A stretch of DNA of 56,232 nucleotides, taken from positions 1 to 56,232 of the IMG/VR virus record IMGVR_UViG_3300028027_000068. The stretch is one strand, 5' to 3'. The notes under the pieces were generated by a model, which was given only the letters and a program-made list of their open reading frames with translations, did not search any database and had not been told where the DNA came from. The position numbers and the translations under genes are program-made. This document shows, in pieces, positions 19,805-53,357 of this stretch; the first letter of the stretch is position 1, and every line of letters begins with the position of its first letter. The DNA is from a virus.

Positions 19805-20031
19805 TTGGAACCCCTTGATTTTTTGCTGTTAGCTTTAATCTTCTTAGCCAATTCTTCAACTGAGTTTTTGGCGCTAGAAAAGTTTAGCGCAACAGTGGCG
19901 TCTTCTGCCTGAACATCCTTAATGCCATTAGCTTCTATGTAGTCCATATAGGAATTACGCCAAAAACGTTGTACAGCGGCAGCCATTTGGTCGCCTTCTT
20001 TTTGGTTTTCTGGAGATTTAGCTGGGGTCAT
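19801..20031 (-). CDS. Small basic protein of unknown function
   Basis: A 76-residue protein starting MTPAKSPENQKEGDQM and ending in a Lys/Ser-rich tail. Its ATG overlaps the stop of the giant gene at 20028 and its stop overlaps the next ATG. No motif recognised. Confidence 0.7.
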   Translation of the reverse strand: MTPAKSPENQKEGDQMAAAVQRFWRNSYMDYIEANGIKDVQAEDATVALNFSSAKNSVEELAKKIKANSKKSRGSK

Positions 20032-23000
20032 GGCCAGGTGCTTCCGGTTAGGTAGTTGGATAATTCGGGAAATGCTCTTGCGAGTATTGCTCGTTGATTG
20101 AAACTGAGCAAGTTTCTAGTCACTCTACTTGGAGAAAGTGCTGCAGTCAAAGTTTCTGATAACCATTCGGGAGGAGAGCTTGCTGCATAATCGCTGACGG
20201 AATCTTTAAGCATCATGTTTACAAAGCTCAGGTCAATACCGGCAGCAGACTGCCAACTTGGTTTGTTAAGCAGAGACAGAATAACATGCGCATCCTGGGC
20301 GTCTTGATTTTTAGGGTCTGCTTCTATGTCGAGTTTTGCTTTAGCTAAAGCGTTGTTGTGTATCGAGTGGGACGCCTCGTGCCGCAATACCGTCACAGGG
20401 CTACCCTCGTCAATAACCGCAGGCCTAGAGAACTTGCTCATTCTTTGTGTAGCAAGAACCTCGGTGTACCGCGTAATCATACTTAATGGGTCGTCTGGAA
20501 ATCTGTCTATGAAAAACTCCGGGCTGATTCCCCAATGCCCGCGAAGCAACAGTTCAGGGTCTTGGAGAGCATCGTTTACTTGTGCTCCCTTGGGAATAAA
20601 AGAACTACTACCAACCGGGAGTATTGCAGAAATACTACTGTTCATTAAAGTCACACCATTACCTGCTCCAGGCATGTTTTGTGCACGCACTTCTGAGTTG
20701 GGGAAAAACTTGGGCTTACCATCTGCTCCAGTTATTTCTTGAGCAGAGAAAATTGCAAACTGTGGAAATCCGTAAGTGTTGGCAAGAAGGTACATTTCCG
20801 GAGAGGCCATATACATCATCTCAATGTTGTACTGAAGCTGCTGTAAATGCCATGGGTTAAAATCCGGAGCGTAGTTGTTTAACCTTTTAGACAGGTATGT
20901 TTCTGCAGATATTCTTTGCTCGGCATTTACCATTGCTATGTACTGAGCCTTAGTCATCGGGCTTCCATCTGGATTTATGGCAGCAGGGTCTGCCTTCCAC
21001 TTATTGCTTTGGTTAATGTCGGCTAGGCGTTTAATAAAAACGGGATTGCGCTGAACATAGTTTTGCATTGCTCGTTCGCGAAGCGACTGCATGTCTTGAG
21101 CTATGAGGCCTTTTGTTATTTCGCGTATGTCGCCTAAACGTCCTAGATATTTTTCTTGAACTTTTGTTCCCATAGAGCCAGTAATTTTGGAACTCCTGCC
21201 CAGGTTTTTTTCAAATGTTCCTGTGATGGGGTTAAAGGTTTCAACCTGCTCAAGGGTGATTTTTTTAACTTTTGTTCGCTGTCCGTTGCGCTCTATGTAG
21301 TCAGTTGATGTTCTAACATACTTAAATCTTCCTTGCGTCACCTGCTCTGTAACGTCTGTAACCCATTCGCCACCGATGTTAAATTGATGCATATACTCCT
21401 CACCAGCAGCATCGCCAGTACGGGCTCCTGGGACTATCTCTAGTATTACTCCAGGGGTTGTGTCACCATCTACGCCAATTGCATACATTTTTGCTGTTTG
21501 CAGGTCTGAGGTAAAAGCCGACAACGGCAAAGTTATTATTTCGCCAGCTGAAAGATTCATCACCTGGTCCCCGGGAGTAACGTTTGAAAGCCCTCTATAT
21601 ATAGGGCGCATGTTCACTTCTTTACCACTATTAATGTAATTAAGACCTATGAAAGCATCACGAATAGCCCTACGAGCATCGTTCATTTCCGAACGAGAAA
21701 TATTCGGCGTTGTTCCGTTGCCAAGAAGGTCGTGAACGTGTGTGCCTTCATCGTCTCCCATGTATCCAGCAGAGCTTGGAAGAGGTTCACCCATTAGTGC
21801 AGCAGAAGCAAGACGCATGCCGTAGTTGCCGCGCCATCCAACCCATTCATCGTATGCATCTACCCACTCTGTATATTCATTAGGGTTTACATCAAAAGTA
21901 AAATCCAAATCTCCGTACTTCACGGTGACTGTTGAGTTTTTATTATCTTTTTTGACTACATCTATAGATGTTGTAATCTTTTTACCCTTAGTGGGATTTT
22001 CGTTAGCCATTGCGCCAGTAATAACTCCCGGCGTTTTGATTGTTTCACCACGTGCTGGAGGAGTGTCGGCATCTGTTTTTGGCAGTTTTGACCTTCTGTT
22101 TGCCCTAAGGGAAGACGGCTCAGTAGGCAGTACTGAAGAACTTGTAGCTCTTCTTCGTAGCTCTGCTCTGGTAAAGTTTTTTCCACGCCTAGGTGGAGTT
22201 ACTATCTCTGTTGGGTCAACGGGGTACTCGTCCTGAAATGCAAACCCACCTTCGTTTCTTCCTCCCGGTCGTGTTCTTGCCAGTACGTATTCATTAGCCC
22301 CAGTCGTGCTTAGGATTCTGTTTACAGTAGATACAGATATCTTATTACGTGCTGCAATTTCTTTTTGAGTAAACTGAGTAGACAAAAAGTCACGTACTAC
22401 GTCACGTTCTAATTTTTCTTTAGCGGCCCACCAGTCTGAAGACACTGCTCCAGATATTTTTCTTGTCTCTCTGCGTGCTGTTGTTTTGTTGGTCTTTGGC
22501 TTTGGTTTTCCAATTGAGCCTGACAGCTTTTGTTGAGCTGATTCTCTACGAGCCATAGCTTCGTGATATTTAGTCCAGTCCCTACCTCTGTCATACATTC
22601 CTCCATGATAAGCAATTGATTCCTCGCTGTAAGCAGGACGAGCTCCTAAGACTTTTATTTTGTCTTCATCAAAAACAATTACGTGACTTGACTCTGCTCC
22701 ATCTCCTGGAGTGTTAATCCAAACAATTCCATCGTGACCAGCGGCTCGTGCTAAAAGATTTAATTCTTGTGTGGCCAACCCGCCTGCATCAGAATGCATA
22801 TTTATTTTTCCGCCATTAACTATTTCTTCATAGTATTTAATTTGCTCAGGGCTTGGTTCGTATTTAAAGGTTATTTTTACTCCAGCAGGAGAATCGTCTC
22901 CACCTTTAGCCACGTCTAGCAAGAGTTTGTACAAACCGCGTACTTTTTCTGTACCTCCTAGTTGTTTTATGTACTCTTCTTGCCTTTCCTCGAGTGTGGC

Positions 23001-25448
23001 AGCCCTATTTTTTCTTTCTTTAGAATCATCCGGATACCATTCATGTGTGGTATTTTCGTCAGGCTCAAGTACTCCGACATTTACAACTATGGGGTTTTCT
23101 AGCTCGAGTCTTGCCACGAGTCGTCTTATTTTCTTCAGCTCCTCTGTCGAGTTGCGGTGTAAATCTTCACCATAAGCTTCGGCCATATAGGGGTCGCCAT
23201 CAAAAGAAAAATTTCCGCCTCGGCCAAAATTTCCAGAACCTCTGATTTCGTACTTCTTTGATTTTATTATTGATTCAATGTCTGCTTCACTAGTTGAATG
23301 TAGGCCTAGTATTTTTACCGGCTTTCCAGTTTCTAAGTCGTAAGAATATACTGGATGATTTTTGTAATTGACAGAAGGCTCAGCGTGCCCTTCTCCAAGT
23401 TCAGGGTCGTCTACAACAGGCCAGCCACCCCAAAAACCAATACTCTTGCCAACTGCTTCGGCATCTAAGTCTAATTTAGGGTCGTCTATATAATCAAGAA
23501 TTGACTTTGTTGGTTTCGGAGTTGTGCCAATAGAGCCCTTTAATCCTGTTGAAGACCTAGGTATTGTCATCCGTCCGTCTTCATCTGGCAGTCGATACTT
23601 GACTAAGGTTTTAAGCACCTCTCCTGGCTTAGAATTTCTTTCTTTCGCCAACTCGACAACCGTCTTGCCGGCGTCATACATGTCAAGTAGTTCTTGGTCA
23701 TCTTTTGGAATCTCGATTGATGAATCCCTGGTTGCAGTTGTTCTCTTGCGACCTTTTTGCGCAGACACAATATTGGAAACCCTATTTATGGTCATTCCTT
23801 CTATTTCTGCTATTTCTCTAGTCGTCTTTCCGGCATTGTGTGCGTCAAGGATACGCTTAGCTCGTTCGGGATTCGGCTTCCAACGCGGCTCTTCTGTTAT
23901 TTCGCCACGTTTGCGTGCTTGATTTAGGGCCCAGCCAACTCCCTGTACGGTTGTTCCTTCTGCTTCGGCTATATTCTTGCGACTTTCACCAGCTTTATAC
24001 CTTTGAACAATTCGCTTATCACGTTCTGTCATCTGTGCTGTTCTTGCCATTGCTCCAGTAACGCGAGAAGGTTTGGGGACACGTGGTGCTCCCGGTCTTT
24101 CAAAACGTGTTGCGTCTTGTACTTTTCCGTCGCCGTCGGCATCTATAGCATTAGGGTCAAACCGGTCAGGGTTATTTAGTTTGCGTAGAGACTTTTCATC
24201 AACGGGAACGTTTGCGCGCTTTTTTACAAAAGACGAATGCATTTGTCCTGTTTCCACAATATTGTTATCCACCATTGAGTGGAGATATGCAACCGCACGT
24301 TTTCTGATTGTTTTAGGCTCTTCAGATAGTGATTTTGTCTTAGGTCGAGAGTAAGTAATAGGGTCATCTATGCCGATTATTTGCCTCATTGTGTCTCTGT
24401 CTATCCACGCATCACGTTTTTCTTGGATTATTTCCCAAATCAATCTTTTGGCTTCTTGGGCTGTTTTAATTCCTCTTTTTTCGTCAACTTCTTCCCATGC
24501 CGCAAGTTGAGATGTCATTATTCTGTCAAAGAACCCCCATGCTACTTGGTCGATTATTTCGTCATCGCCTTCACTCACTGTTTCAGCAGCATGAACCATT
24601 GCTAAATAGTTAGCCCACTCTCCGTGCCTATCAAAGCCACGCCCGGTTCCAAGATGTCCGTAAAAGTCATGCATGACTTGTACGTATTCCATCTGATACA
24701 TCTCTGTGCCAAACATCATGTCGTTTGAAAGTCTTAAAAAACGTTCGTATATTGCATCAAATGGATGGAAAGGCGTACCTGGCATATATTGTTCGCCAAG
24801 AGATTCACGCATATCGCTATATTCGCTGCGTGGAAGAAACAGGCCATTGTCGGCTTTTTTGTACAACTTCTCACTGATTGTTTCGGCGTACGCGCGTTTC
24901 TCATTTTTGTTTTCTTTAAGATTTTCAAGAATAGCTTTATACATTCGTATTCTTGCTTCAGACGAGGGAATCCTTACGTTAGAAAAATCCCCATCAAAAC
25001 CAATCAATTCTCTTATCTCGGGGATAGGGGGAGCAACGATTGTAAAAATACCATCAGGTGACGGTTCGATTTTTATACCATTGACTAGGTCCATTATTCG
25101 TTTTTCGGACCATTGTCCTTTTGGGGTTACGTTTCTAATTCTAGAACGTTCAAAAAGTTCACGGTCTCCGCCGGCCATCTCAAATATAACCGAAGGTATT
25201 TTTTCCGGCGCTAAGTCATATAAGGATGGGTCCTTGATTAAAGCATCTATTATTTCAGGCACGGGTTGATTAATGTCAAAAGGCTTTGACATAGCCCCAC
25301 TAATAGTTCTTGCTGTTGCAGGGCGCTCAAACCTAGTTAGCTCTTGAACAATGCCGTCGTTGTCTCCATCTATGGCGTCCGGGTCGAACGCTTCTAATCT
25401 AGATGCACGACCTATTGTTGGAAGTTTTTTAATAACGCGGCGTGGCAT
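20028..25448 (-). CDS. Giant polyvalent protein: two ART domains, HTH array, metallopeptidase
   Basis: An 1,806-residue multi-domain protein. In order: FDPDAIDGDNDGIVQE tag (21-36); ISGAMS (49-54); a HDFYGH...HGEW domain (about 230-295) seen in polyvalent phage proteins; a second tag (430-445); VTGAMA (463-468); three HTH repeats (475-620); LKGSIG (636-641); an ART-PolyVal-like domain (about 710-935, ending AGHDGIVWINTPGDG and VIVFDEDKIK); LSGSIG (975-980); ISGAVS (998-1003); another HTH (1015-1048); ITGAMA (1143-1148); an R-S-E ADP-ribosyltransferase (R1285 in YRGLS, LSAFTS 1309-1314, E1368); ITGSMG (1422-1427); and a gluzincin metallopeptidase (HEASH 1690-1694, SPPEWLSE 1758-1765). The short G-A/S-M elements fall between domains and may be protease sites. 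It probably acts in the host after delivery. Confidence 0.85.
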   Translation of the reverse strand: MPRRVIKKLPTIGRASRLEAFDPDAIDGDNDGIVQELTRFERPATARTISGAMSKPFDINQPVPEIIDALIKDPSLYDLAPEKIPSVIFEMAGGDRELFERSRIRNVTPKGQWSEKRIMDLVNGIKIEPSPDGIFTIVAPPIPEIRELIGFDGDFSNVRIPSSEARIRMYKAILENLKENKNEKRAYAETISEKLYKKADNGLFLPRSEYSDMRESLGEQYMPGTPFHPFDAIYERFLRLSNDMMFGTEMYQMEYVQVMHDFYGHLGTGRGFDRHGEWANYLAMVHAAETVSEGDDEIIDQVAWGFFDRIMTSQLAAWEEVDEKRGIKTAQEAKRLIWEIIQEKRDAWIDRDTMRQIIGIDDPITYSRPKTKSLSEEPKTIRKRAVAYLHSMVDNNIVETGQMHSSFVKKRANVPVDEKSLRKLNNPDRFDPNAIDADGDGKVQDATRFERPGAPRVPKPSRVTGAMARTAQMTERDKRIVQRYKAGESRKNIAEAEGTTVQGVGWALNQARKRGEITEEPRWKPNPERAKRILDAHNAGKTTREIAEIEGMTINRVSNIVSAQKGRKRTTATRDSSIEIPKDDQELLDMYDAGKTVVELAKERNSKPGEVLKTLVKYRLPDEDGRMTIPRSSTGLKGSIGTTPKPTKSILDYIDDPKLDLDAEAVGKSIGFWGGWPVVDDPELGEGHAEPSVNYKNHPVYSYDLETGKPVKILGLHSTSEADIESIIKSKKYEIRGSGNFGRGGNFSFDGDPYMAEAYGEDLHRNSTEELKKIRRLVARLELENPIVVNVGVLEPDENTTHEWYPDDSKERKNRAATLEERQEEYIKQLGGTEKVRGLYKLLLDVAKGGDDSPAGVKITFKYEPSPEQIKYYEEIVNGGKINMHSDAGGLATQELNLLARAAGHDGIVWINTPGDGAESSHVIVFDEDKIKVLGARPAYSEESIAYHGGMYDRGRDWTKYHEAMARRESAQQKLSGSIGKPKPKTNKTTARRETRKISGAVSSDWWAAKEKLERDVVRDFLSTQFTQKEIAARNKISVSTVNRILSTTGANEYVLARTRPGGRNEGGFAFQDEYPVDPTEIVTPPRRGKNFTRAELRRRATSSSVLPTEPSSLRANRRSKLPKTDADTPPARGETIKTPGVITGAMANENPTKGKKITTSIDVVKKDNKNSTVTVKYGDLDFTFDVNPNEYTEWVDAYDEWVGWRGNYGMRLASAALMGEPLPSSAGYMGDDEGTHVHDLLGNGTTPNISRSEMNDARRAIRDAFIGLNYINSGKEVNMRPIYRGLSNVTPGDQVMNLSAGEIITLPLSAFTSDLQTAKMYAIGVDGDTTPGVILEIVPGARTGDAAGEEYMHQFNIGGEWVTDVTEQVTQGRFKYVRTSTDYIERNGQRTKVKKITLEQVETFNPITGTFEKNLGRSSKITGSMGTKVQEKYLGRLGDIREITKGLIAQDMQSLRERAMQNYVQRNPVFIKRLADINQSNKWKADPAAINPDGSPMTKAQYIAMVNAEQRISAETYLSKRLNNYAPDFNPWHLQQLQYNIEMMYMASPEMYLLANTYGFPQFAIFSAQEITGADGKPKFFPNSEVRAQNMPGAGNGVTLMNSSISAILPVGSSSFIPKGAQVNDALQDPELLLRGHWGISPEFFIDRFPDDPLSMITRYTEVLATQRMSKFSRPAVIDEGSPVTVLRHEASHSIHNNALAKAKLDIEADPKNQDAQDAHVILSLLNKPSWQSAAGIDLSFVNMMLKDSVSDYAASSPPEWLSETLTAALSPSRVTRNLLSFNQRAILARAFPELSNYLTGSTWP

Positions 25449-25456
25449 GATGACAA

Positions 25457-25555: not shown

Positions 25556-25585
25556 TTTATTACTCCGTAAGAAAACTAATACAAC

Positions 25586-25591
25586 ATTATC
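25586..25591 (-). promoter_or_regulatory. Extended -10 promoter for the giant gene
   Basis: Minus strand TGG-GATAAT; no good -35 box, but the TGn extension can compensate. A palindrome CTTGTT-A-AACAAG (25618-25630) lies just upstream and could be a regulator site. Confidence 0.45.
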
Positions 25592-25752: not shown

Positions 25753-25765
25753 CGCTTAATGCTTA

Positions 25766-27094
25766 TTAGGCTGCTACTGGAGCGTTGTCGAACGTTACAG
25801 AGACAAATGACTCTGGACGCTTGACAGCAAGCGCGAGGCGCTGCTCAGCAAGGATGACAATCGCGTTACGCACGAAGAAGTCTGCATGCTGTTCCGAAAT
25901 ACGGATGCTTGCTTGTTCACGGTCGTAAAGTTGAGCACCTGTACCGAATGCACCGATAAGAGCCTGGCCTACTGGCATTGCTGGAGTGTCCACGACAGGA
26001 ACGCGCCAAAGCTTTGGCTCGCCACCCATTGCAACCGAAACTGCGATGAGGTACTGACCGTTTGAGTCCTTGGTAAGTTCGATGTCTTCCCAGTCCTGTG
26101 GGTTCAAAACGACACCAGTTGGTTCGTAGTAAGCCAACAGGGCAAGAGTTGCGGCACGGCGGATTGCATCAGCCTTTGTGTCTGCAACTGGTGCTGTTGC
26201 ACCGTCTGACCAGTCGTATGTCTGAATACCGGTGGTGTTCAAGATTCCGTTAAGGTTTTCGCCAATGCCGTCACCTTGAAGGATTTGGTAATCCTCTTGG
26301 AGACGAAGTCCGTAAAGGAGTTCATTGTCGATGATTGAACGCAATTGTGGCTCGTCAGCAAGCACGTTGCGGTGCGCTGCTTCCCAGTGAGCGAGTGTGC
26401 GGACAGGAGCCTGCTCACCAACGAACTGGAATGACGATTGTGGCTTAGCAGCAAATGCTGCACCATTACGCTCAGCTACGGTTCCGGCGTTGTTTACTGC
26501 AGTGGTACCTGGTGTTGTGAAACCGAGCATACGGAAGTACTCGATAACAGCAGCAGTTGTGGTGCGTGCAGGGAACAAGTCGCGAACGCGCTTTGTACGT
26601 GTTGGAGGCGTGACCATAGGGTCACGCTGGACTGTGCCGAATGAACCAGGGTTACCTGAAGGAAGCGCCGAGTAGACGTCCTTTACGTTGAATCCGGCAT
26701 TTGCAACACTGCTGTTCAATACGAACGGTGAAGCCATGTTTGCGCCATTACGACCACCCTGAAGGGACTTGAACTCTGGTGAGTCAAGGAACATTTGACC
26801 AAGAGACTTGGCTTCTGCTGGACGGAATTGTGCACTTGCATCAAATGAGCTGGATACTGAGCTCTGTGGCTCTGAGCCCCACTGCTCAACTGACTTCATT
26901 TGCTCAAGGCCATCAATGAGGCTCTTGATTTCGCGGATGTCCGACATATTGCGGTCGAACGCTGACTTCTGCTCAGAGGAAACGACAACAATGCCGTCCT
27001 CTATCTTAAATGAGTCTGCGATGGTCTTGTTGTCGGCCATCTTTACTCGGAGTGCGCTCTGAAGCTCACTCAATCTTGATTCGTCAAATGACAT
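25766..27094 (-). CDS. Major capsid protein, HK97 fold
   Basis: A 442-residue HK97-type capsid protein. The N-terminal region (about 1-110) is helical and charged like the delta/scaffold segment. Later come VLNPQDWEDIEL (about 328-339), the P-domain spine region, and the closing ISEQHADFFVRNAIVILAEQ with RLALAVKRPESF, typical of the family. AGGAG precedes the ATG. It is the only capsid gene seen, and it lies 23 kb from the protease. It carries none of the GAM-type tags, so if the protease trims it, the site differs. Confidence 0.92.
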   Translation of the reverse strand: MSFDESRLSELQSALRVKMADNKTIADSFKIEDGIVVVSSEQKSAFDRNMSDIREIKSLIDGLEQMKSVEQWGSEPQSSVSSSFDASAQFRPAEAKSLGQMFLDSPEFKSLQGGRNGANMASPFVLNSSVANAGFNVKDVYSALPSGNPGSFGTVQRDPMVTPPTRTKRVRDLFPARTTTAAVIEYFRMLGFTTPGTTAVNNAGTVAERNGAAFAAKPQSSFQFVGEQAPVRTLAHWEAAHRNVLADEPQLRSIIDNELLYGLRLQEDYQILQGDGIGENLNGILNTTGIQTYDWSDGATAPVADTKADAIRRAATLALLAYYEPTGVVLNPQDWEDIELTKDSNGQYLIAVSVAMGGEPKLWRVPVVDTPAMPVGQALIGAFGTGAQLYDREQASIRISEQHADFFVRNAIVILAEQRLALAVKRPESFVSVTFDNAPVAA

Positions 27095-27222: not shown

Positions 27223-27420
27223 CTAGAAGACTACGTTTGCGTCTATGCCAGATTTGTACATCTTGTCGTATTCCGCGCGGAGTTGACGAAATAGTTCTTT
27301 GTTTTTTTCTGTTTCTTCTATGCCGGCATCAGCAAGGCTTGTATTTCGCGCAGCTGCAAGTGCTATTGACTCAACATTTATTGCGGTTTTTAAAATTTTT
27401 GAATCTGCCATGGTTACCAT
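27223..27420 (-). CDS. Small helical protein
   Basis: A 65-residue helical protein (start 27420; a start at 27411, MADSKILK, is equally possible). It overlaps the end of the zeta-like kinase gene. No function is recognised; the place just before the capsid gene would suit a scaffold or decoration protein, but there is no direct support. Confidence 0.6.
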   Translation of the reverse strand: MVTMADSKILKTAINVESIALAAARNTSLADAGIEETEKNKELFRQLRAEYDKMYKSGIDANVVF

Positions 27421-28415
27421 TTTGCCGTTCTTGGAGCCGTTGACCACCAGTTGGTACCCCCAAAGAATACAGCCAATGCTGTTTCGTCGTGTTCAAACTT
27501 TAAATCTTCAGCAAGGGATAGTTTCAAGATAATTCTTGGGTTCGTTGGGTCCGTAGTGTCAACAAGTGTTAAATCGTCTAAATATCCACTTCTCCAAAGT
27601 TGTGGAATTATGCCCTGAATATTACTGGCCATGGTGCTCACTATGCCGGAAGGGACTCCACGTCCAGTTTCTTCTTCTCGCTTTTTAACTCTTTGAACAA
27701 GTGTTTGAGTTGGAGCTAGGAAGTAATTTGCACTTATTCTGTATCCAGAATCGCGCATATCAGAAATTGTTTGATATCCGTTATTAAACTGGCCGCTTGT
27801 GTCGTAGATAATTGGTAACGCATTTGCTGCTGCATTAACTCTCAGTTCCTCAGCAATGTTTCTCGATTCCTGGTGAACGTATGAAGCCCCACCAGGCGTA
27901 AGGGTTGATAGGTGTCCCTGATACTCGGGTATTATTAATTTTGCATCGTCCGGGTCAACCATTACGCTGCGTCCATAAAGGCCGTCAATCACTCTTGCGG
28001 CATCTCCAGGGAGACTGTCTCTGTAAATTGTTCCCTCGGATATTTTTTCTGCCCAGTCCCTGAAAGTGCTCTTCATACTTGCCGACGAACCGCCGAGTAT
28101 GGAGAAGACCTTTTCATCTACATCATCAACTCTAAGTAATTTTACGCGAAGTATTTCGGCTTCTATATAGGGCACCCATATCTCTTTTTTTCTTACTGGG
28201 TCATTGGACGGCGTTCCACTTGGAAATATACGCATCATTGTGTCGAGGTCTGATTTGGTCATCACGTCCGGATGAGGTAAACCAAGCTTGTCATGAAGTG
28301 AATAGTCTGGTTGCCACTTACCGGAACGTGAGTTCCCGGGTGATTTGCCCTTACTTAAACCGCGACGTACGTTGTCGCGCATCTGGTCAATCTGCTCTTG
28401 ACTATAAAAAGCCAT
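27414..28415 (-). CDS. Zeta-toxin-like kinase
   Basis: A 333-residue P-loop kinase. GGSSASMKST (108-117) is a variant Walker A lacking the usual GK pair but keeping KST; PDDAKLIIPEY, a QESRNIAEEL helix, IIYDTSG and the C-terminal RVKKREEETGRGVPSGIV follow in the zeta-toxin order. Zeta kinases phosphorylate UDP-N-acetylglucosamine and block cell-wall synthesis; whether this variant does is unknown. The same frame stays open for 31 codons upstream, where it encodes KLSGAMA across the start codon, one of the recurrent tags. A -1 slip at 28508-28514 would join it to the preceding protein. Confidence 0.8.
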   Translation of the reverse strand: MAFYSQEQIDQMRDNVRRGLSKGKSPGNSRSGKWQPDYSLHDKLGLPHPDVMTKSDLDTMMRIFPSGTPSNDPVRKKEIWVPYIEAEILRVKLLRVDDVDEKVFSILGGSSASMKSTFRDWAEKISEGTIYRDSLPGDAARVIDGLYGRSVMVDPDDAKLIIPEYQGHLSTLTPGGASYVHQESRNIAEELRVNAAANALPIIYDTSGQFNNGYQTISDMRDSGYRISANYFLAPTQTLVQRVKKREEETGRGVPSGIVSTMASNIQGIIPQLWRSGYLDDLTLVDTTDPTNPRIILKLSLAEDLKFEHDETALAVFFGGTNWWSTAPRTAKW

Positions 28416-28501
28416 AGCTCCAGACAGTTTTGGTTTTCTTGAATTTGGACCAATCGCCCGACTTACTGCCGCTTCACTCTGTGCTGCCGGCAGGTCAGGC
28501 G

Positions 28502-30586: not shown

Positions 30587-30629
30587 CAATAGCCTTTCGT
30601 TGTATATAAGTTTAGTAAACAGCAGTCAA

Positions 30630-34509: not shown

Positions 34510-34830
34510 TTAAAACAGAGCTCCTTCAGAGCCTGGAGACATAGATGACAGCGACCCGTCTGGCATTGTTTCTATTCCTGCAACACCGCGCTCGCGAAGC
34601 TTCTCAAACTTGCTTCCTGTTATCTTGCGCTTACCACGTCGTTTTTGAGACATTCTCCGAATCGATTCAAATTCATGAGTAGCAGCCTTTTTCTTTGGTT
34701 CTGCCTCCATGGATACACGCTGCAGTATTTCATGAGAAGAACAAGGCATCCAGTCACCATCTTTGTCCTGATGCGCGCCAGAGCAACCGATAAATGAGGA
34801 TATTTTTAGCGCTTCTTCTCTCGTAGACAT
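34510..34830 (-). CDS. Small tagged protein (GCxG...WMPC motif)
   Basis: A 106-residue protein. FIGCSGAHQDKDGDWMPC (about 14-31) matches the Cys motif of 30630-31250. KRKITGS (about 68-74) is a partial copy of the boundary tag. It abuts the Nudix gene with no gap. Confidence 0.7.
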   Translation of the reverse strand: MSTREEALKISSFIGCSGAHQDKDGDWMPCSSHEILQRVSMEAEPKKKAATHEFESIRRMSQKRRGKRKITGSKFEKLRERGVAGIETMPDGSLSSMSPGSEGALF

Positions 34831-42448: not shown

Positions 42449-42768
42449 TTTTTTTCCTTTTTATCAGTAGTTTGCATTTTTATTGCATCTTCAATACTGA
42501 TGTTTAGACCAGCTATTTTTCGAATATCAGATATGTATTTATCTATATTGCCAAAAACATTAGAGCTAGCTAGCGCCTCGTCTATCGATTCCGGGCTGTT
42601 GTCAAAATTGTCACCTACAACAACGGAGCCGTCTTCTTCAACCCTGGACACGGCACCAAGTATTTTCTTTCCTGCTTTTACTGGTTTTGTTTTTCCTCCG
42701 GAAGAAAGCGAGAAAAGTTTCCTAGATTCAGGCTTTTGTGAAGTTGTCTGTTTTGAGTTCTTTGTCAT
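42445..42768 (-). CDS. Small basic tagged protein
   Basis: A 107-residue protein. KKILGAVSRV (about 34-43) is a copy of the boundary element. The C-terminal half (NVFGNIDKYISDIRKIAGLN) is helical. ATGA overlaps on both sides. Function unknown. Confidence 0.65.
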   Translation of the reverse strand: MTKNSKQTTSQKPESRKLFSLSSGGKTKPVKAGKKILGAVSRVEEDGSVVVGDNFDNSPESIDEALASSNVFGNIDKYISDIRKIAGLNISIEDAIKMQTTDKKEKK

Positions 42769-45700: not shown

Positions 45701-47906
45701 TAGTTTTAAGAGGCCCGGCTCCTCCACCCAGCACATAAGCGTCAGTAAGTGCCGTAAAGTCAATCCAATCATTTAAGTTTGCGGTTGACAGTAGGTCTAG
45801 CCAGTCTTGTTCTCTGGAAGACATTCCTCCGGCAGGTGTTCTAGATGAATTAAATATTTCTGGCTTTGTTAATAGTGATTGTATAAATCTGTTATTTGTT
45901 CTTTGATTTTGGGGAATTGCTGCAAGTATTTTTTTAATTTCATCTGGTGAATAGGCTGAAAAAATAGACTGAACGGTGTTTTTTCTTCGATTATCCCTAA
46001 GTCTATTTCCTCTTGCTACGATGTTGTCAAAAGTTTGGTCTGCGTAGTCTTCTGCAACCTGGTCGGTTATATCATCAATATTTCTATCGGGAATACCGTT
46101 TCTATCTGGGTCTCTAAATGTTCTTGCTGCTCTAGCAATTCTTCGTCGCACTCCTGGTTTATCTATTACGCTGGCGTTGTTTTCAGGCTTTGTTATGTCT
46201 ATCCCGAATACGCCCATCATTAATTCATCAAGGTCTGGGTGTGGACGTTCTCCGTTTGGTATACGCTGACTATTTAGTTCGTCAATAGCTTGTTGTACCA
46301 TCTCTGGAAATTCTCTTGCCGTTACATAGAATTCCGCTCTTGCTTCGTTGTCTAAAAAATCACCATTACGGTCTTTTGCATGTGCGTATTTTGAACCTGC
46401 AAGATGTCTTAGTAAGTCGCCTATTTCTTTGGAATATATTCCACTATCTGTAATCATCTTGTCAGTAATGTCACTATAAAACTTATCCCATATTGATTCT
46501 TTTTGTGCGTCTGTAGTTGCAGTGCTTAAATCAGTTTTGAGCTCGCCATACTTTTCATAAAGCCAATGCTGCTCAGGAGTTATTAGGCCAGCATTGAGCG
46601 CTCCATCAATATCTCCATTAGAAATATCTTCTATTCTTTGTATAGCGTCGTTGTAGTCCGTGTCGTTGATATCTATGCCAAAACGTTTAAACATTTCATT
46701 GAAGTCGGTCAGGTGTCCAAATTCGTGCACCCCAACCCATGAGCCAAAATCTCTAGGACTTAAAGGCTCTTCGGCGTTACTGCTTGCGCCAATACCTAAA
46801 TATTCTGGAGTCTCTGATATTTCGTAATATAGTTCTGTAAATTTTCTAGGATGATACCTAAACGTGACAAACGGGGTTCCTAAATCTTTTACCTCATTGG
46901 GGGATGCCTCAACTACAAAGCCTTCGTTGGTAGCTGCAAGAGTTTCATCAAACTGCCAAAAAATTTCAGAATTCTCTGCGACCTCTCTGTTTGTTAAGGC
47001 CTCGTACAGCATAGAAGTAACGAACGCTTCCCGTAGGTCTATATAGTCTGCCAGCTCTTTGCCAAATAGTCCATTTGTATCGTTTAGAAAAGTATCTAAA
47101 CTTTGTTCGTCCATTTTTGGATACGCACGCATCATTGCTTTTTTGGCGTTAATTGCAAATCTTACGTTTCCAAATGTCTGAGCGACAATTTTTTCTTTTC
47201 TTTTTTGGTTACGCTTAAAAGTTAAAAATCTTTTGGCTCCTTCATTTCCGCCAAATAGCATTACGCCGTTGTCGTCAATTCTTTCGCCAACATTTAGTCC
47301 AACTGCTCCAGATAAGTTTCTTTTACCCGAGTTTTTGGCAGCAGACCGTACTGCGTCAGCGGCATCTCCAGCAAGTGTTGCGGCAGATGGGACCATACAG
47401 TTAGACATTTGAAGGTCCGTAAACTGGTTAGCCGCCGGTGTTCCGGCAGGGCAACGAAGTTTACCCATGTCATCGACAGGAATACCTCTCCCTCTGGCAA
47501 CCATGGCTATCAGCGATGTTGCTCCAGGCATGTTGTTGATGGTTCTTCCAAGCACAGATTTGGAAGCCATTAGGCCTATTTCGTTAAGGCTTCTTTTTCT
47601 TTGCGGTTTTTCATCGTCTAGAAATTTGGAGTTAGCAGAGGGTTCAAGGCTCAAGGAATCTAGTTTTATGACTTTTCCTGGAGGGAGAAGCGGAATCCTG
47701 TCTCCTTCTTTCCAGTTTCTTACCCAGTGCTGGAACTTTGTCTTTGCTGGTTTTTGAGGTTTTTTTTCGTCTTTAATATCAGACGTGTTTTTTTCAGCTT
47801 TATAGCGTGAACCAGCACCAAAACCATTTAAATTAAATTCGTCAGAAGAAACGTTGTTAAGTAGTCGTTGTTCAATGTCGCTTAACTTTTTACGCGGTTC
47901 AGCCAT
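42765..47906 (-). CDS. Giant polyvalent protein: two metallopeptidases and an ADP-ribosyltransferase
   Basis: A 1,713-residue protein. RCPAGTPAANQFTD...C (151-170) is the second tag type; LSGAVG (198-203); a metallopeptidase with HEFGH (394-398) and a distal EARAEF (521-526); ITGSIS (767-772) and LSGSMG (779-784); an R-S-E ADP-ribosyltransferase (about 845-1045; R935 in FRGLT, LSAFTA 959-964, E1012), a clear paralogue of the one in 20028-25448; a remnant of the first tag (GFERP, 1076-1080) and LTGKIK (1089-1094); a second metallopeptidase with HESIH (1304-1308); then helices. The ATG at 47906 has GGAG five bases upstream; 47927 does not. Confidence 0.83.
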   Translation of the reverse strand: MAEPRKKLSDIEQRLLNNVSSDEFNLNGFGAGSRYKAEKNTSDIKDEKKPQKPAKTKFQHWVRNWKEGDRIPLLPPGKVIKLDSLSLEPSANSKFLDDEKPQRKRSLNEIGLMASKSVLGRTINNMPGATSLIAMVARGRGIPVDDMGKLRCPAGTPAANQFTDLQMSNCMVPSAATLAGDAADAVRSAAKNSGKRNLSGAVGLNVGERIDDNGVMLFGGNEGAKRFLTFKRNQKRKEKIVAQTFGNVRFAINAKKAMMRAYPKMDEQSLDTFLNDTNGLFGKELADYIDLREAFVTSMLYEALTNREVAENSEIFWQFDETLAATNEGFVVEASPNEVKDLGTPFVTFRYHPRKFTELYYEISETPEYLGIGASSNAEEPLSPRDFGSWVGVHEFGHLTDFNEMFKRFGIDINDTDYNDAIQRIEDISNGDIDGALNAGLITPEQHWLYEKYGELKTDLSTATTDAQKESIWDKFYSDITDKMITDSGIYSKEIGDLLRHLAGSKYAHAKDRNGDFLDNEARAEFYVTAREFPEMVQQAIDELNSQRIPNGERPHPDLDELMMGVFGIDITKPENNASVIDKPGVRRRIARAARTFRDPDRNGIPDRNIDDITDQVAEDYADQTFDNIVARGNRLRDNRRKNTVQSIFSAYSPDEIKKILAAIPQNQRTNNRFIQSLLTKPEIFNSSRTPAGGMSSREQDWLDLLSTANLNDWIDFTALTDAYVLGGGAGPLKTIDAVRKERKRVKLEKRNSRQAGTASNKLTKKITGSISNPRISKLSGSMGWVNTSSLPPWSNEPNAPKVENRVSAVLSPVENSEKALLQWGEDSFEIDTSIDPNELWKSEAFNEWATFHGNFAMRYVSAMLMGQDVPMSEGYGSETLDEGLKSIHDELVSGSMKGVDAAKQKRVRQEIEYAIAALRTLNLPENSKPYEIFRGLTGVPDDASILNLKKGDTFELPLSAFTASEDWAYEMGEFTENGQGVILKVLPGAHSTPTNAEYIQNPTETFDNYFEVVTAGRFELIEIDDVEGEQTVITLRQTDTFDPLTSKYSPVKRPKQKTSADKNPETDTEIDGATGFERPAPRREVSRLTGKIKTSVSSPVKYGLSEDKEVKKFDGFDHTAALESVNKIIREIETRHGKIKTVGDAAKALKTVFKKVRINHMGENHGPDGKSELGDRLTKSEQAAIAGILYTLNNSPHLKSRRLILSHEISDGSFSINGSTAIMPRIGQNGGPDFPEYGIRINIPFNENVAGAIIGEDMNSIDGVGNQVAKALLLHAQTLSPGQERDSYEQAALVSFFVGTSIHESIHALDMPQINDKIHKAAMQEDPSLQTERARIDHIFKQAGTRDEVLKTFVMRDAIDDVTSSNAMRAIGASMEYEANGPEEFLKNGRLSIDEVNKMKAEIEARRDEASSLLNDPLLDLGEQLQAMLIAQSMQSMIDNLDNTISQLTTLTDDLEENINNGTPEQSIMGTLHRSVYDRGLNYLSDVFPPGHPGYGTDVDLTVDPAGNMVALIDGDGNPVKELKATPEYMESTIISFIQAKDFHSASENAGFSLAGLKDLLDDANIERDTNGNESFSLTNQIQGIDPAQVDDLVDTLGQAYVAALSAEHWAPGIDDEAKWELIDWMRAISRYGSLTHFRYRNGLTTPSKQSIISAEINAELITSLILGAGAARTPMSSQVRGAIINILDWVYGGDSWKSILPDVSLEALKVK

Positions 47907-47974
47907 TGCTACTCCATATATTAACAACTACATCATTCAATTGTATTTGCCCGGAGCGCACCGGGAAAGTATAA

Positions 47975-48250
47975 CTAGGCTGTTTCAGTGTCCGACGAGA
48001 CTGGTGCCTCTTCAACGACTGGTGCCTCTTCAACGACTGGAGCTGTAGCTTCTGTTGCTTCACTGGTTTCAGCTTCTGCATCTTTTGCCTTCTTAGCTTT
48101 TGCCTTTGATTCTTTTTGTGGTTCTGCAGATTCGCTCAAAAGAGAGCCGATGCCGGATGGCGCTGCTTTGTCTTCCTTGTTTTCAATAGCAATATCTGCT
48201 TTGTTTGTCTGCTGAAAAACGCCTGTTGGGGCTGCATTCTTGTGCTGCAT
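47975..48250 (-). CDS. Disordered Ala/Glu-rich protein
   Basis: A 91-residue low-complexity protein (KAKAKKAKDAEAE, APVVEEA repeats) with an SGIGSLL string near residue 32. TAATG overlap with the gene upstream. Such proteins in head operons may serve as scaffolds, but nothing proves it. Confidence 0.68.
   Translation of the reverse strand: MQHKNAAPTGVFQQTNKADIAIENKEDKAAPSGIGSLLSESAEPQKESKAKAKKAKDAEAETSEATEATAPVVEEAPVVEEAPVSSDTETA
48001..48040 (-). repeat. 18-bp tandem repeat encoding PVVEEA
   Basis: CTGGTGCCTCTTCAACGA occurs twice head to tail, with four bases of a third copy. Confidence 0.9.
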
Positions 48251-49596
48251 TATTTTTCTCCCTCTATGCCTTGCTCTGCTGTGAGCATTTCAAATTCAAG
48301 CAAATCATTAAGGAAAGATTCTTCTTCAGACTTTCCTTCCATCTTCGCTTTGTTCTTGTCTTCTGCTGGAACCCAATTGGTAGGGATTAATTCCTCGAGG
48401 CCAAGGTCTAGTGCGCGCTTCATGATGTGCGCCTTAGCTGCTTCTTTGTCTTTTGCTCGGCCATATGCTTGAACAGCATTGCGAAGGTCTGATTCATCCT
48501 TGATTGGGTACGAACCATCTGACATCGCGCTTCCGCTCTTTGCCATCTGGTCACGTGACTCTTCGTTATAAGCACGCTTGAGTGCAATCTCTGCTGCTTC
48601 GGCCTCGATGGACTCTGCTTCGTCAAGTGTGTACTCGTCGTAACCAAGAAGCTCACCGTCAAGGGAAACGAACACGTCGTACGACTTGCCGTCAAGACCC
48701 TCAATCTCTACCGCGTATGCATCAAAGCCTTCAAATACGTCTGGTTCTACAGCAACAACGTCACCGAATACGCTCTTTGTTGCAATCTCTGCAGCTTCTG
48801 AGAAGCTAATAAGGCTTTGGTTCTGCAGCCCGGACTTAACGTTCAAGACGTCCGCATTAAGCATGTGCCATCCCATTACCTCGGCTGTTTCACCATCAAA
48901 GAATATTTCAATTGGCTTGCCGTCTTTACGTTCAACATCAACAATGAAAAGGTCTGCATCGTCCGAGTAGCCGGAGTCAAGAACCTTGCCGCTGAACATG
49001 TCTTCAGCAATGCCTTCAATCTCTAAAATTCCAGGCATTTTTCCTTCGGGCATACATCCGCCTGGGCAGCTGTCGCAAACAGATTCACCCATTGGGTATA
49101 CCTTGCGCTCAAACTGACACATAAATACTTCGTCAGTCTCCATGTCTGCGGACTTGAATCCCATCGAGTTCAGGCGACGCATACGCATTTTCTTGCGCAT
49201 ATTTTGCATTGCTTGCGTTTCTTCTTCTGCTGGGTCCATTGACATCTTGGCTTCTTCTTCATCCATCGGCATGTCAGCTTCTTCTTCGTCCATGGCCATT
49301 GGCTTCTTCTTTTTGATGGGGAACATTTGCTCTTCTTCCTCATCGTCCATCATTGGAGCGGCGGCTTTGCGACTATTCTTCATAGGCATTTCTTCTTCGC
49401 CCATTTCATCTTCCTCGTCTGCCGCGTCTTCAAGGTCCATGTCTCCCATGTCCCCTTTAGCCATAACAGCCATTGCGCCGCACTTACCGCAGGCCTTGTC
49501 GCCAGCTTTAAATCCGCACTCAGACGCGTCAACGCCTTTAGCGCAGCTAGCTAAGCTTCCATCTGCGTTTAGTTTTACGATAGCTTTTTCCTGCAT
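48250..49596 (-). CDS. Acidic Met-rich protein with PepSY-like domain
   Basis: A 448-residue protein. An N-terminal Cys cluster (CAKG...ECGF...CGKCG) is followed by a Met/Glu/Asp-rich stretch to about residue 130 (MDEEEADMPMDEEE), then Cys-containing CDSCPGGC. Residues about 265-330 resemble a PepSY fold (FEGFDAYAVEIEGLDGKSYD). The C-terminal SGSAMSDGSYPIKDESDLRN and AVQAYGRAKD strings recur in phage head proteins, and SGSAMS resembles the boundary tag. The ATG at 49596 has AAGGAG upstream. It may be scaffold-like. Confidence 0.7.
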   Translation of the reverse strand: MQEKAIVKLNADGSLASCAKGVDASECGFKAGDKACGKCGAMAVMAKGDMGDMDLEDAADEEDEMGEEEMPMKNSRKAAAPMMDDEEEEQMFPIKKKKPMAMDEEEADMPMDEEEAKMSMDPAEEETQAMQNMRKKMRMRRLNSMGFKSADMETDEVFMCQFERKVYPMGESVCDSCPGGCMPEGKMPGILEIEGIAEDMFSGKVLDSGYSDDADLFIVDVERKDGKPIEIFFDGETAEVMGWHMLNADVLNVKSGLQNQSLISFSEAAEIATKSVFGDVVAVEPDVFEGFDAYAVEIEGLDGKSYDVFVSLDGELLGYDEYTLDEAESIEAEAAEIALKRAYNEESRDQMAKSGSAMSDGSYPIKDESDLRNAVQAYGRAKDKEAAKAHIMKRALDLGLEELIPTNWVPAEDKNKAKMEGKSEEESFLNDLLEFEMLTAEQGIEGEK

Positions 49597-49835
49597 TATG
49601 GCTCCTTGTGTTGGATTGTCTTCATAAGACAACCTTTTTGATTTGTGCACCCTGCACACGGTTCGTAGCGCTTTTCGCCCGTGACTATGCACTGATACTT
49701 ATGTTGAATATTCGCTAATTGCCTTGAAGTAGCATAACCCATTGGAGAGCGTCCCTGGGTGTACTTCTCGTCACGAATACCGCCATTAACTGGCTTTGAG
49801 GATGGCCGGCCAGAAGGCTGACCGGCCTTAATCAT
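49596..49835 (-). CDS. Small Cys-cluster protein
   Basis: A 79-residue protein with CIVTGEKRYEPCAGCTNQKG ending in a further Cys (about 48-68), a likely zinc-binding set. ATGA overlap upstream and TAATG downstream. Function unknown. Confidence 0.7.
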   Translation of the reverse strand: MIKAGQPSGRPSSKPVNGGIRDEKYTQGRSPMGYATSRQLANIQHKYQCIVTGEKRYEPCAGCTNQKGCLMKTIQHKEP

Positions 49836-50170: not shown

Positions 50171-50180
50171 TTAATTACCC

Positions 50181-53100
50181 TTAATACTCTTCGTCTTTTT
50201 GTAAATTCTTTATATGAAGATTTAGGTTCTCTTTTAGCTGACGATAAGTCTGCTCGGTCTGATTAGCCACATCCCATAAATTCTGCAGGCGTGCAGCTTC
50301 TTTTGTAGCTTCTCTTTTATTCATGTCTTCCCAGCGCATCAGATGTTTAATAACGCCCTCTTCATCTTGCCAGCTGAGTCTTTCGGCAAGAGCATCGTTC
50401 CAGTCGTTATTTATCCCTCTAACCATTTCTTTCCATCTGGTTTTCAGGTCGTAAAGAGCATCTTCTGCTTCTTCTAGCGACAGGTCGTCAAACTTGGTGT
50501 CTGTAACTTTGTCATGCATATCCCAGGCTTCGTCGCCGTCTTTAGCATTAAGTACCTCATCTAGGGCTGAGCCAGGATTTCTCGCATCGACGTCTGGATT
50601 TTTCTTTTTTGCCCCCATGGCCCCTGAAATTCCGCCCCTGCTATCAGTGTCTCCACCCATGCGGTTGTCGTCCATTTCTGCGTTTTGGTAGTCACGTCGT
50701 AATTTAGCTAACTGACCTTGCAGACCTCGTATTTTGTCTTCCGGTAGATTGAAGTCTCGGGCTTGGGAGGATGCGTCTTCTGGGTTTCCAACCCTTTCGG
50801 TTATGGTAAGGCTATCAAATAGCTCCCGAGGAAGACCGGTACGTTCAACCATTCGTTCAATGGCGGCCTTTTCCCAGTTCTGAAGTTTAGGTGGGCGTTT
50901 TCCTGGCTCGTCCCCGCTCATGGCTCCTGAGAGACCAGCTCTTCTTCTGGCGTTTCTGGCAATTGTGAGTTCGTATTCCATTGGGGTCATCCCGGCAATC
51001 ATCGTTCCGCCGCCGCCGCCATCTATTGGAGCAACACGCGGTGTATCAGCCATGTCTCTTTGGAATTTTTTTCTTTGTGCTGGTGTCATGTTTTTAAGAA
51101 TGTCATCCATACTCTGTGGCTTGTCTGAGCTCATGGCTCCTGAGAGACCAGCCCTCTGTGGGACTCGTGGCTGTGACGGAACAGAAGGACGGGCTGGGGT
51201 TGGCGTAGAGGGAACGGATGGCTTGATTGGTACATCTTCTCTACGAGGAACCTGGATTGGTTTAACCTTGGGCATCATTTGAGGCGCTTTAGGAGCATCA
51301 GGGCGCTGAAAGGTTGTTCCCTCTTGAATAACCCTGTCTCCGTCAGCATCTATTGCGTTGGGGTCGAACCTATCCATTCTATTGGCTCCCATTTGGCCAA
51401 TGCGGCGAAGTTTTCCACCTACACCCTTTGCACTGAAACCTTCAGACATGTTTTGAGCAATATTCATTACTGCTTCGTAACCCTCTTCAGACAATGAATC
51501 GATAAACGGTACGGCGACTCCATCTTCAAGCTCTTTAAGCTCGATGCCGTGGTAGTCACATACGGTCTTTACTAATTCCATAGCTGCGGACTTTTCATCA
51601 CCAAGTGCACGAACAAACAGGTGGGCTCCTGGGGTCTGTTCTTTAAACATACTCCAGTCAATACTCGGCATTGAGGTTCCACATGTTCCGCCGCAGCCGC
51701 AGCCGCCGTGAGGTTTCTTTTCTACGTCTTCCATCATTTCACGATGTCCGTGTGCATACTCGCGTTCATCTTCGTCATCCTCCATGTCTGGGAAAGCGTG
51801 GCCTGGCATAATTCCGGCAGGCGTATTTACTGGTAAATAAACAGTTTCAGCACGAACCTGGTGCGGTTCACCAAACATAAATTCATCACCGTCAAAGTAG
51901 TAGGTGACCCTCATGGTTGTTGACTGTCCACCGTTACTTATGTCAAATATGACCATGTCTCTGTCGGCTGTTCTGATTTTCACAGGAGAGCTAAATCTTT
52001 CAGAAAGAGCTTTGGCAAGGTCTGCCATTCGCCCAACCGAGGTATTGGACATCGACTCCGGCGACTCGTATATAGCACTTTTTTCAGAGACTTGAGAGTT
52101 TTCATCCGTAATTGGGCCACCAACTACCCAAGCATCACACGTGCGAGAAGATGCGCACTTAAAGTCAAACGCTTCGCAGTACCCAAGCTCGGCGGCGTTA
52201 ATTACATCCCAAGCACTGTCACCAAGCTCACCGCCGGCTGCAAGGCCTTTTTGAATGCAGCTTTCCATGTCCGATGTCTTAATGAATACTGCGCAATTTC
52301 CGCATTTTTGTTTCTTTGCTTCAGTCGTATCGACATCCCAGCGAGATGCTTTTTTATTCCAAAATTTTTCATTTGCTTCTTTTGGATTAAGTGGGCCATA
52401 TCCAGCCGTCTCAATAGCTTTTTGTCTATTTTTAATATTTACGGAAACATCAGTTGTTGCTACTGGACACTTGTTTCCACCTTCAGCAGGGTCGGCTTTT
52501 GTTTTGTTTTTGCCATATCTGTCAAGCATTCTGCGACCTTTGGCAGCTAACTCTGCTGCGTCTTGGCGGTTTTTGGGTGCTGGCTCACCCCACGCTACGG
52601 CTGCAAGTGCAAGACGTGTTGGTTCCCCGTCTTCGTCGACCAGCGGGCCTGATGGATTTGTATAGAACCGAGTAAGGAAAGAACCCTTACGGCGCATCTT
52701 TTCAGGAGTGTCAGCAGGTCCTTTTACTCCGGGCTTCAGGTTTGCGCCTTCAGTTTCCTTAAAGTACTTGCGTCCTGCTGGAGTTAGTCCGCCTTTGGGG
52801 TCCTTTAGTTGTTGGTCCGCCTTTATGGATATGGTTCCAGTCAGTTGGTTTGCGCCATGAAGAACTGGAGAAACTTCATAAAGTTCCACTTCTTTAAGCA
52901 TATTGGCTTGCTGAGATGGGTCGAATACTGCATCAAGGGTTTTGTAACCAATAGACCATTCTTGTTCTTCGCCAAAGAACACAACGCTATTAAAGGCTTC
53001 CTTGCCTCTTTCGGACTTTAAGTTGAACTGAACACGTGCATATAGGCCGCCGATTCCAGCACGCTTCATCTTCATCGGAAGGCGCGGGTCGTTTGGCCCA

Positions 53101-53357
53101 ACTTCATAAATGTCGATAACCTTGCCGATTGGCTCGTTCCAGTTATGGCCCCATACGACACGAGGCTTACGGCGCTTAAGACTGCCTACAAACGCTCCAG
53201 GCAGACACACATCGCCTACTGAGTCTTTGTTACCAATACCGGCCACGAAGCATTCAACAATGCCTAGAGCCTCATCAACATTAAACTGACCTGGTATGGC
53301 TTTATATTCTGTAGCTTTTTCTTCAGTCGTTTGCATGTCTGTAAAAGATGACGGCAT
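50181..53357 (-). CDS. Prohead protease (S78) fused to tagged C-terminal region
   Basis: A 1,058-residue protein. Residues 20-180 are an HK97-type S78 prohead protease: H71 in VVWGHNWNEPIG, S135 in EWSIGYKT, and E161 in LYEVSPVLHGAN. Next is a DUF6321-like segment (LTPAGRKYF...LAAVAWGEP, 191-258), then a Cys-rich region (297-410: KCGNCAVFIK, CEAFDFKC, CDAW) and CGCGGTCG. From about 661 comes FDPNAIDADGDRVIQE, the linker MPKVKPIQVPR, and three boundary elements (LSGAMS near 738 and 808, ISGAMG near 910). The family is usually 200-300 residues, so this is a large fusion that links the protease to the tag system. Confidence 0.85.
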   Translation of the reverse strand: MPSSFTDMQTTEEKATEYKAIPGQFNVDEALGIVECFVAGIGNKDSVGDVCLPGAFVGSLKRRKPRVVWGHNWNEPIGKVIDIYEVGPNDPRLPMKMKRAGIGGLYARVQFNLKSERGKEAFNSVVFFGEEQEWSIGYKTLDAVFDPSQQANMLKEVELYEVSPVLHGANQLTGTISIKADQQLKDPKGGLTPAGRKYFKETEGANLKPGVKGPADTPEKMRRKGSFLTRFYTNPSGPLVDEDGEPTRLALAAVAWGEPAPKNRQDAAELAAKGRRMLDRYGKNKTKADPAEGGNKCPVATTDVSVNIKNRQKAIETAGYGPLNPKEANEKFWNKKASRWDVDTTEAKKQKCGNCAVFIKTSDMESCIQKGLAAGGELGDSAWDVINAAELGYCEAFDFKCASSRTCDAWVVGGPITDENSQVSEKSAIYESPESMSNTSVGRMADLAKALSERFSSPVKIRTADRDMVIFDISNGGQSTTMRVTYYFDGDEFMFGEPHQVRAETVYLPVNTPAGIMPGHAFPDMEDDEDEREYAHGHREMMEDVEKKPHGGCGCGGTCGTSMPSIDWSMFKEQTPGAHLFVRALGDEKSAAMELVKTVCDYHGIELKELEDGVAVPFIDSLSEEGYEAVMNIAQNMSEGFSAKGVGGKLRRIGQMGANRMDRFDPNAIDADGDRVIQEGTTFQRPDAPKAPQMMPKVKPIQVPRREDVPIKPSVPSTPTPARPSVPSQPRVPQRAGLSGAMSSDKPQSMDDILKNMTPAQRKKFQRDMADTPRVAPIDGGGGGTMIAGMTPMEYELTIARNARRRAGLSGAMSGDEPGKRPPKLQNWEKAAIERMVERTGLPRELFDSLTITERVGNPEDASSQARDFNLPEDKIRGLQGQLAKLRRDYQNAEMDDNRMGGDTDSRGGISGAMGAKKKNPDVDARNPGSALDEVLNAKDGDEAWDMHDKVTDTKFDDLSLEEAEDALYDLKTRWKEMVRGINNDWNDALAERLSWQDEEGVIKHLMRWEDMNKREATKEAARLQNLWDVANQTEQTYRQLKENLNLHIKNLQKDEEY
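50916..50939 (-). repeat. 24-bp direct repeat, copy 1
   Basis: Identical to 51129-51152; both encode the AGLSGAMS boundary element in the protease protein, so one arose by duplication of the other. Confidence 0.85.
51129..51152 (-). repeat. 24-bp direct repeat, copy 2
   Basis: Exact partner of 50916-50939, 213 bases apart (a whole number of codons). Confidence 0.85.

Follow-up and report, generated by a model that had tools for sequence, protein, structure and literature searches.

The DNA analysed here is the IMG/VR virus record IMGVR_UViG_3300028027_000068, linear and 56,232 bases in length (hereafter the window, meaning the whole stretch), and our subject is a short peptide element, referred to as the tag, that recurs in the large proteins of its head block. 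The head block runs from the portal gene through polyprotein 20028 on the minus strand (genes are named by their lowest coordinate), and the genes, tags, leader elements and frameshift signals given below are all on that strand. Its large multidomain genes sit between the portal gene (53441–55687, with a head-morphogenesis domain) and the major capsid protein gene (25766–27094; phrog_10, 1.5e-62), plus just beyond. They include the gene for a 1058 amino acid (aa) S78 protease (50181–53357; Pfam S78 5.8e-10, DUF6321 2.7e-28) and the first polyprotein, 42765 (42765–47927; 1720 aa), which carries a Cys-rich RCP element, a HEFGH peptidase segment, an ADP-ribosyltransferase (ART)-like segment shared with 20028, and a second HExxH segment. 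There follow a small protein with one tag (42445–42768), polyprotein 35213, the Nudix polyprotein 31243 (31243–34509; 1088 aa, NUDIX at aa 300–416, 1e-15), the carrier protein 28502 (28502–30589; 695 aa), a Zeta-toxin-type kinase (27414–28415; PF06414 1.1e-11) and the second large polyprotein, 20028 (20028–25448; 1806 aa), with a phrog_3170 segment, helix-turn-helix (HTH) segments, an ART-like segment and a C-terminal HEASH segment. The head block also holds the conserved genes 48250, 41804 and 39751.

Written as [ILV]xG[AS][MIV][GSA], the tag has 20 exact matches in the head block, whereas 1000 shuffles gave 0.7 on average and never more than 4. It has no match in the window outside the head block, where 0.4 were expected. 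Seven copies lie in 20028: ISGAMS at aa 49 (25287–25304), VTGAMA at aa 463 (24045–24062), LKGSIG at aa 636 (23526–23543), LSGSIG at aa 975 (22509–22526), ISGAVS at aa 998 (22440–22457), ITGAMA at aa 1143 (22005–22022) and ITGSMG at aa 1422 (21168–21185). Polyprotein 31243 has four, namely VTGSMG at aa 47 (34354–34371), IDGAMS at aa 237 (33784–33801), IVGSVS at aa 574 (32773–32790) and LSGSMG at aa 587 (32734–32751). Three are found in 42765 (LSGAVG at aa 205, 47298–47315; ITGSIS at aa 774, 45591–45608; LSGSMG at aa 786, 45555–45572), two in 28502 (VGGAMG at aa 109, 30248–30265; LSGSIG at aa 611, 28742–28759) and one in 42445 (ILGAVS, 42646–42663). The protease gene 50181 itself contains three (LSGAMS at aa 738, 51129–51146; LSGAMS at aa 809, 50916–50933; ISGAMG at aa 910, 50613–50630). 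One further copy, LSGAMA (28410–28427), lies at the carrier-kinase junction, and its M codon is the ATG of the kinase gene. These counts bear out an earlier sequence-only reading of this DNA, which had described about 20 copies in the same six proteins, three of them in the protease gene, and another running through the start of the kinase. An expectation-maximisation motif search given no hint of the motif recovered the tag among its top non-low-complexity motifs. We would like to note that the tag patterns were refined after motifs had been seen, so that the de novo search and the shuffles are a partial safeguard only. A loose look-alike near aa 897 of 42765, LVSGSMKG, lies within a domain that other proteins also contain and has probably arisen by chance, which corrects the tag set.

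The codons of the tag vary at every position, and Shine-Dalgarno-like matches are rarer upstream of the tag Met than upstream of other internal Met residues (0.72 vs 0.94); selection therefore acts on the peptide and not on the DNA, as had been proposed from the sequence. The same observations bear on the possibility that ribosomes initiate internally at the tag Met and so also make the modules separately in the same frame. The residues following the Met (S, G, A or T) are those of many protein N-termini, and the kinase open reading frame (ORF) starts at one such Met, but the Met is replaced by I or V in many window copies, the residues preceding it are kept, and we rejected internal starts at the tags on the outcome of both the codon and the Shine-Dalgarno test. 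Stand-alone homologues were also checked for starts aligned with the tag Met, and the informative cases were too few. We consider this explanation very improbable.

Relatives of this phage are encoded in hundreds of IMG/VR stretches, and the portal-to-capsid block was fetched for about 25 of them (given G numbers here), all of which are metagenomic fragments. The nearest named records are actinobacterial phages with about 50% capsid identity, and these, together with a WhiB-like gene read by eye at 8738–9028, suggest that this uncultured freshwater group is probably actinobacterial. The head-block proteins 39751 and 42765 had zero matches among 50,697 phage records, and no tag excess was found in the cultured phages Gordonia Chidiebere, Gordonia GMA6, Brevibacterium Cantare or DSL-LC01. 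In tag-bearing lineages the tag takes a form specific to the lineage, a variant of the common core phi-[ST]-G-x-M-[SGA], and de novo motif searching found these forms in about a dozen relatives: ISGRMGN in G012 and G013, ITGKMS in G014, VSGKMS in G017, GLTGAMS in G015, GVVGAMA in G016, GPVGKMA in G005 and G004, and a more divergent GLAS form in G029. In well-covered lineages phi-[ST]-G-x-M usually occurs in 11–19 copies, against 0.3–0.9 expected, and relatives reach about 20 tag copies and ORFs of up to 5345 aa, with essentially zero copies outside their head blocks. The longest of these, G005:C1:50217-66254, is a single ORF with the protease side on one flank and the capsid gene on the other. 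At least three tag copies were present in 38 of 160 fetched loci, counted within the fetched DNA. No excess was seen in the lineages G007/G008, G009, G019, G020, G021, G025, G026, G030 and G031, which we refer to as tagless.

The tag sits at module boundaries, and cassettes are gained, lost and moved at it. Among ten annotated tag proteins, whose domain annotation reaches only part of each protein, one of 53 tags falls inside a Pfam domain, where 7.5 would be expected, and the Pfam and PHROG domains fall between tags; the 3462-aa protein of G012, for example, holds Nudix, HTH, DnaJ and Zeta domains, each in its own inter-tag segment. The Nudix segment is tag-flanked in every tag lineage where it was matched, an ART-like segment lies between tags in both 20028 and 42765, and the three tags of 50181 all lie in low-confidence linkers of the structure model (pLDDT below 50 in linkers 675–750 and 770–820 for the tags at aa 738 and 809, and a 23-residue linker, 898–920, with helical segments on either side, for the tag at aa 910). 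Single ORFs of relatives combine Nudix, ART, HTH, DnaJ, Zeta and RNase_T domains, and the window itself has Nudix, HTH and ART-like segments. Thus the tracking of domain boundaries in relatives, a check set beforehand, came out in favour of the sequence-only reading, and the effector-type cargo it had proposed is matched by these domains and by the Zeta-type kinase.

Comparisons between relatives place the ends of similarity at the same positions. For 50% of tags the end of a BLAST alignment (high-scoring segment pair) is found no more than 15 aa away, compared with 29% of disorder-matched positions, and whole cassettes of 180–1500 aa have been gained or lost with their junctions on tags. Window protein 31243 and its counterpart in G002 are 72% and 74% identical on the two flanks of a 386-aa cassette found only in G002 and G001, and the junctions in this comparison are 2, 0 and 0 aa from tags. 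Further events separate G012 from G013 (452 aa), G001 from G002/G003 (282 aa), and G012/G013/G014 from G017 (about 1500 aa). Of 20 gain or loss events, five have each of their three junctions no more than 15 aa from a tag, where 0.014 such events would be expected, although the 20 events are not all independent, some records being close relatives. The gained cassettes had no confident match in Pfam; a PHROGs link shows that the domain of the G001/G002 cassette is also present in window protein 20028, between the tags at aa 49 and 463.

A tag found in linkers and at the junctions of gain and loss could be a favoured flexible linker, or a fusion scar left by module recombination, with no partner to recognise it. 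Its Gly and Met, however, are kept while the neighbouring linker drifts, and the consensus of each lineage is common to unrelated junctions of that lineage. Since the codons of the tag vary, it is also not a DNA recombination seed. We give the scar explanation little credence.

The copy at the start of the kinase is a particular case, as the tag there begins before the annotated gene. The kinase frame is open for 35 codons upstream of its ATG, contains no ATG, GTG or TTG in that extension, and overlaps the end of 28502 (0-frame end ..RKKPKKA*) in the -1 frame. An in-frame slippery heptamer, A AAA AAA (28508–28514), is conserved in the window, G001 and G002, and 6 nt past it begins a stem-loop (28455–28501; -26.5 kcal/mol, z -3.5). 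The sequence CCAAAAAAAGC[AG]TAACGCC[CT]GACC with the in-frame A AAA AAA is common to these three records, even though the kinases of G001 and G002 are only 44–54% identical to that of the window, and a DNA-pattern search for further copies of the A AAA AAA site returned G001 and G002 only. What is found here agrees with the features of programmed -1 frameshifting: an in-frame heptamer, a downstream structure, and a conserved -1 ORF without a start before the junction. The tag at the kinase start is thus probably reached by -1 ribosomal frameshifting from the upstream gene 28502. Other relatives encode the kinase as part of a single fused ORF, and the likely product is therefore a carrier-kinase fusion whose join bears the tag, which is conserved at this position.

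The G006 lineage has a second, unrelated site, T TTA AAA, whose extension carries a leader element (described below) and a tag and has changed mostly at third positions of the -1 frame. Probable -1 sites of one or the other kind, appending a kinase or another module to the upstream head-block gene, were noted at window positions 28455–28520, in G001 and G002, and at L011:13280, L012:7918 and L013:13193. Separately, the ORF G019:C1:69775-72252 has a 68-codon start-less upstream extension that holds an RCP element and lies in the -1 frame of the preceding gene; it may represent a third frameshift fusion, and its lineage is tagless.

A second repeated element, FDPNAIDGDNDGxVQExTxFERP, precedes many tags and was absent from the earlier description of this DNA. 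It has a DxDxDG, calcium-loop-like core and occurs near N-termini and before tags, and in several window genes it is recognisable ahead of the tag as FDPNAIDGDNDG..FERP. The first copy in 20028, FDPDAIDGDNDGIVQELTRFERP, lies at 25320–25388; an internal copy in the same gene (24093–24161) directly precedes the tag at aa 463, and others are found in 31243 (34393–34461) and 28502 (30416–30484). Related DxDxDG elements in relatives are far more widespread than the tag, so the element may be a packaging leader. Two Cys-containing elements were also observed. One, the Cys-rich RCPxGxxxGGxFTDxxxxxC, recurs in several head-block proteins, close to their N-terminal part (39143–39202, 41374–41433, and around aa 160–180 of 42765), and is present in tagless lineages too. 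The other, GCxGx(6-16)PC, is DUF3721-like, lies at 31089–31148 and 34741–34788, and also opens the giant polyproteins of relatives.

Taken together, the distribution of the tag points, with reasonable probability, to a proteolytic processing site between the cargo modules of head-directed polyproteins. Under this reading nearly every module junction of a given phage lineage would bear that lineage's single version of the site. Translation would yield long chains, one of which is probably assembled through a -1 frameshift, and these would enter the prohead by way of N-terminal or carrier elements. A phage protease would cut the chains at the tags, so that Nudix, ART, kinase, HTH and similar modules would come free ahead of ejection or in the course of it. 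Being short and located in linkers, the site would allow modules to be gained, lost and moved without spoiling their neighbours. Cutting would account for one copy per junction, the linker position, selection at the level of the peptide, the tag at the frameshift join and the free exchange of cassettes.

Several findings weigh against this interpretation. Tagless G020, G021, G026 and G030 have proteins of more than 2000 aa and yet no such tag, some tag copies are degenerate (LTGKIK, near aa 1096 of 42765, is one), one tag match falls within a DnaJ domain, and a few gain or loss junctions lie away from tags (the insert of the S78 protein described below, and G016/G017). Two more concern the S78 protease. 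The major capsid protein lacks the tag in 21 records and has a different conserved linker, S-[VI]-A, at its N-terminal domain instead; and the S78 N-terminal domains of tagless G007 and G009 are about 80% identical to that of the window, as is that of G005 (81%), which has the PVGKM tag.

The sequence-only reading had named the S78 prohead protease as the enzyme that cuts the tag, and this part of it did not hold up well, given the untagged capsid protein, the similarity of the tagless S78 proteins, and a correlation with tag divergence no better than that of other head genes. S78 is universal among the relatives studied here. The layout of 50181 comprises an N-terminal assemblin-fold protease, DUF6321, a Cys-rich insert similar to high potential iron-sulfur protein (HiPIP) at aa 293–419, and C-terminal segments split by the three tags. 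In the S78 domain H71 and S135 are invariant in 22 homologues, and its model matches T4 gp21 (Z 11.1) and herpesvirus protease (Z 7.6) in a VIA second look. A Foldseek search with the whole S78 model gave nothing below E 0.001, gp21 being recovered only by the second look. The HiPIP-like insert, which has been gained or lost among relatives, shares 60% identity with a protein of phage DSL-LC01 that stands alone and is named 'high potential iron-sulfur protein'.

Within the processing interpretation, the tags could instead be cut by the HExxH metallopeptidase inside the first polyprotein (HEFGH motif at aa 401–405 of 42765, 46713–46727), a resident candidate whose cut before the invariant Met would yield N-termini of M-S/G/A; the kinase ORF, as it happens, starts exactly at the tag Met. 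The HExxH segment is present in the first-polyprotein counterpart gene of all 13 tag lineages examined, in clades that match the tag classes (26–50% identity within the window type, 36–69% in the ISG[RK]M group, and 50% between G015 and G016), and it is absent or marginal in five of nine tagless lineages (no match in the head blocks of G025, G026, G030 and G031; marginal in G021). Autoprocessing by such peptidases was also proposed by Iyer et al. 2017 (PMC5512222). Against it, tagless G020 has a related HEFGH segment, and the segments of G005 and G029 are very divergent. The peptidase fold is unconfirmed, as the model of the segment, built from six sequences, was unusable (pLDDT 41), and a PDB sequence search with the segment alignment gave no convincing match. 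Mantel correlations between tag distance and head genes were 0.65 for S78, 0.67 for 48250, 0.56 for the HExxH peptidase, which is thus no better than S78, and 0.25 for the capsid protein (p 0.12). As most head genes correlate, the Mantel test was not decisive between the two enzymes. We regard the HExxH peptidase as an unlikely cutter, though one to be taken seriously, and lean slightly toward S78. The product of 48250 (48250–49692) is an acidic, Met-rich 480-aa protein kept in all relatives compared; it has no Pfam or PHROG match and is a possible scaffold.

The low capsid correlation also bears on a reading in which the tag is not cut at all and serves as a docking peptide, akin to encapsulin cargo-loading peptides, that binds the shell, the scaffold or the protease to load cargo. 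A short hydrophobic-Gly-Met peptide, repeated in disordered linkers and confined to the head block, would suit such a role. Nevertheless, sister lineages with 70–80% identical capsid proteins and homologous head genes are without the tag, its divergence does not follow that of the capsid protein significantly (the r of 0.25 given above), and docking needs neither one copy per junction nor the swapping of cassettes at the copies. We judge docking to be improbable.

Parts of the processing interpretation have precedents. Iyer et al. 2017 predicted that polyvalent proteins are packaged and injected, and put forward peptidases, either resident or assemblin-like, as their processing enzymes; in its general form the idea is therefore already known. 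The proteins described here share with polyvalent proteins a large size, several domains per chain (ART, HExxH peptidase, kinase and HTH among them) and an origin in genes near those for portal and terminase; they differ from those in the accessible text of that paper in the repeated inter-domain tag, the exchange of cassettes at it and the frameshift-joined module. In T4, gp21 processes injected proteins including the ADP-ribosyltransferase Alt, at a short motif near an N-terminal capsid targeting sequence, which it removes (PMC9026906). The gp21-fold protease is shared, but in T4 propeptides come off single proteins, whereas here the site recurs between many modules per chain and the capsid protein has none. 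Phage SPN3US has one head protease, gp245, which processes internal head proteins at short AXE sites, several of them in some proteins (PMC10052503), but 13 of its 14 sites remove N-terminal propeptides and the motif is A-x-E, not phi-S-G-x-M. The Dar proteins of P1 are likewise very large injected head proteins with N-terminal capsid targeting, and DarA is believed to be processed (PMC9024508); DarB, unlike the proteins here, is targeted by its first 30 residues, and the accessible part of that report describes no inter-module tag. A recurrent lineage-specific inter-domain tag, cassette exchange at that tag and a frameshift-joined module were not found in the published literature searched, of which coverage was partial.

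More tentatively, and with somewhat more doubt than confidence, we suggest that head-packaged polyproteins, which reach about 5,300 residues, are divided up by a peptide code particular to each lineage, that the tag both frees effectors and serves as a point at which they are exchanged, and that -1 frameshifting onto a carrier may set the doses of some effectors. Cutting at the tags would mean that tailed phages use a true polyprotein logic, in which one chain carries one repeated protease site and many effectors. It would then be possible to read the borders of modules, and effector domains that are new, directly from sequence, any stretch between two tags becoming a candidate injected module, and the tag would offer a handle for the delivery of proteins with the phage head. 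The lineage-specific tags, diverging along with the head genes, would likewise provide a test case for the coevolution of a protease and its substrates.

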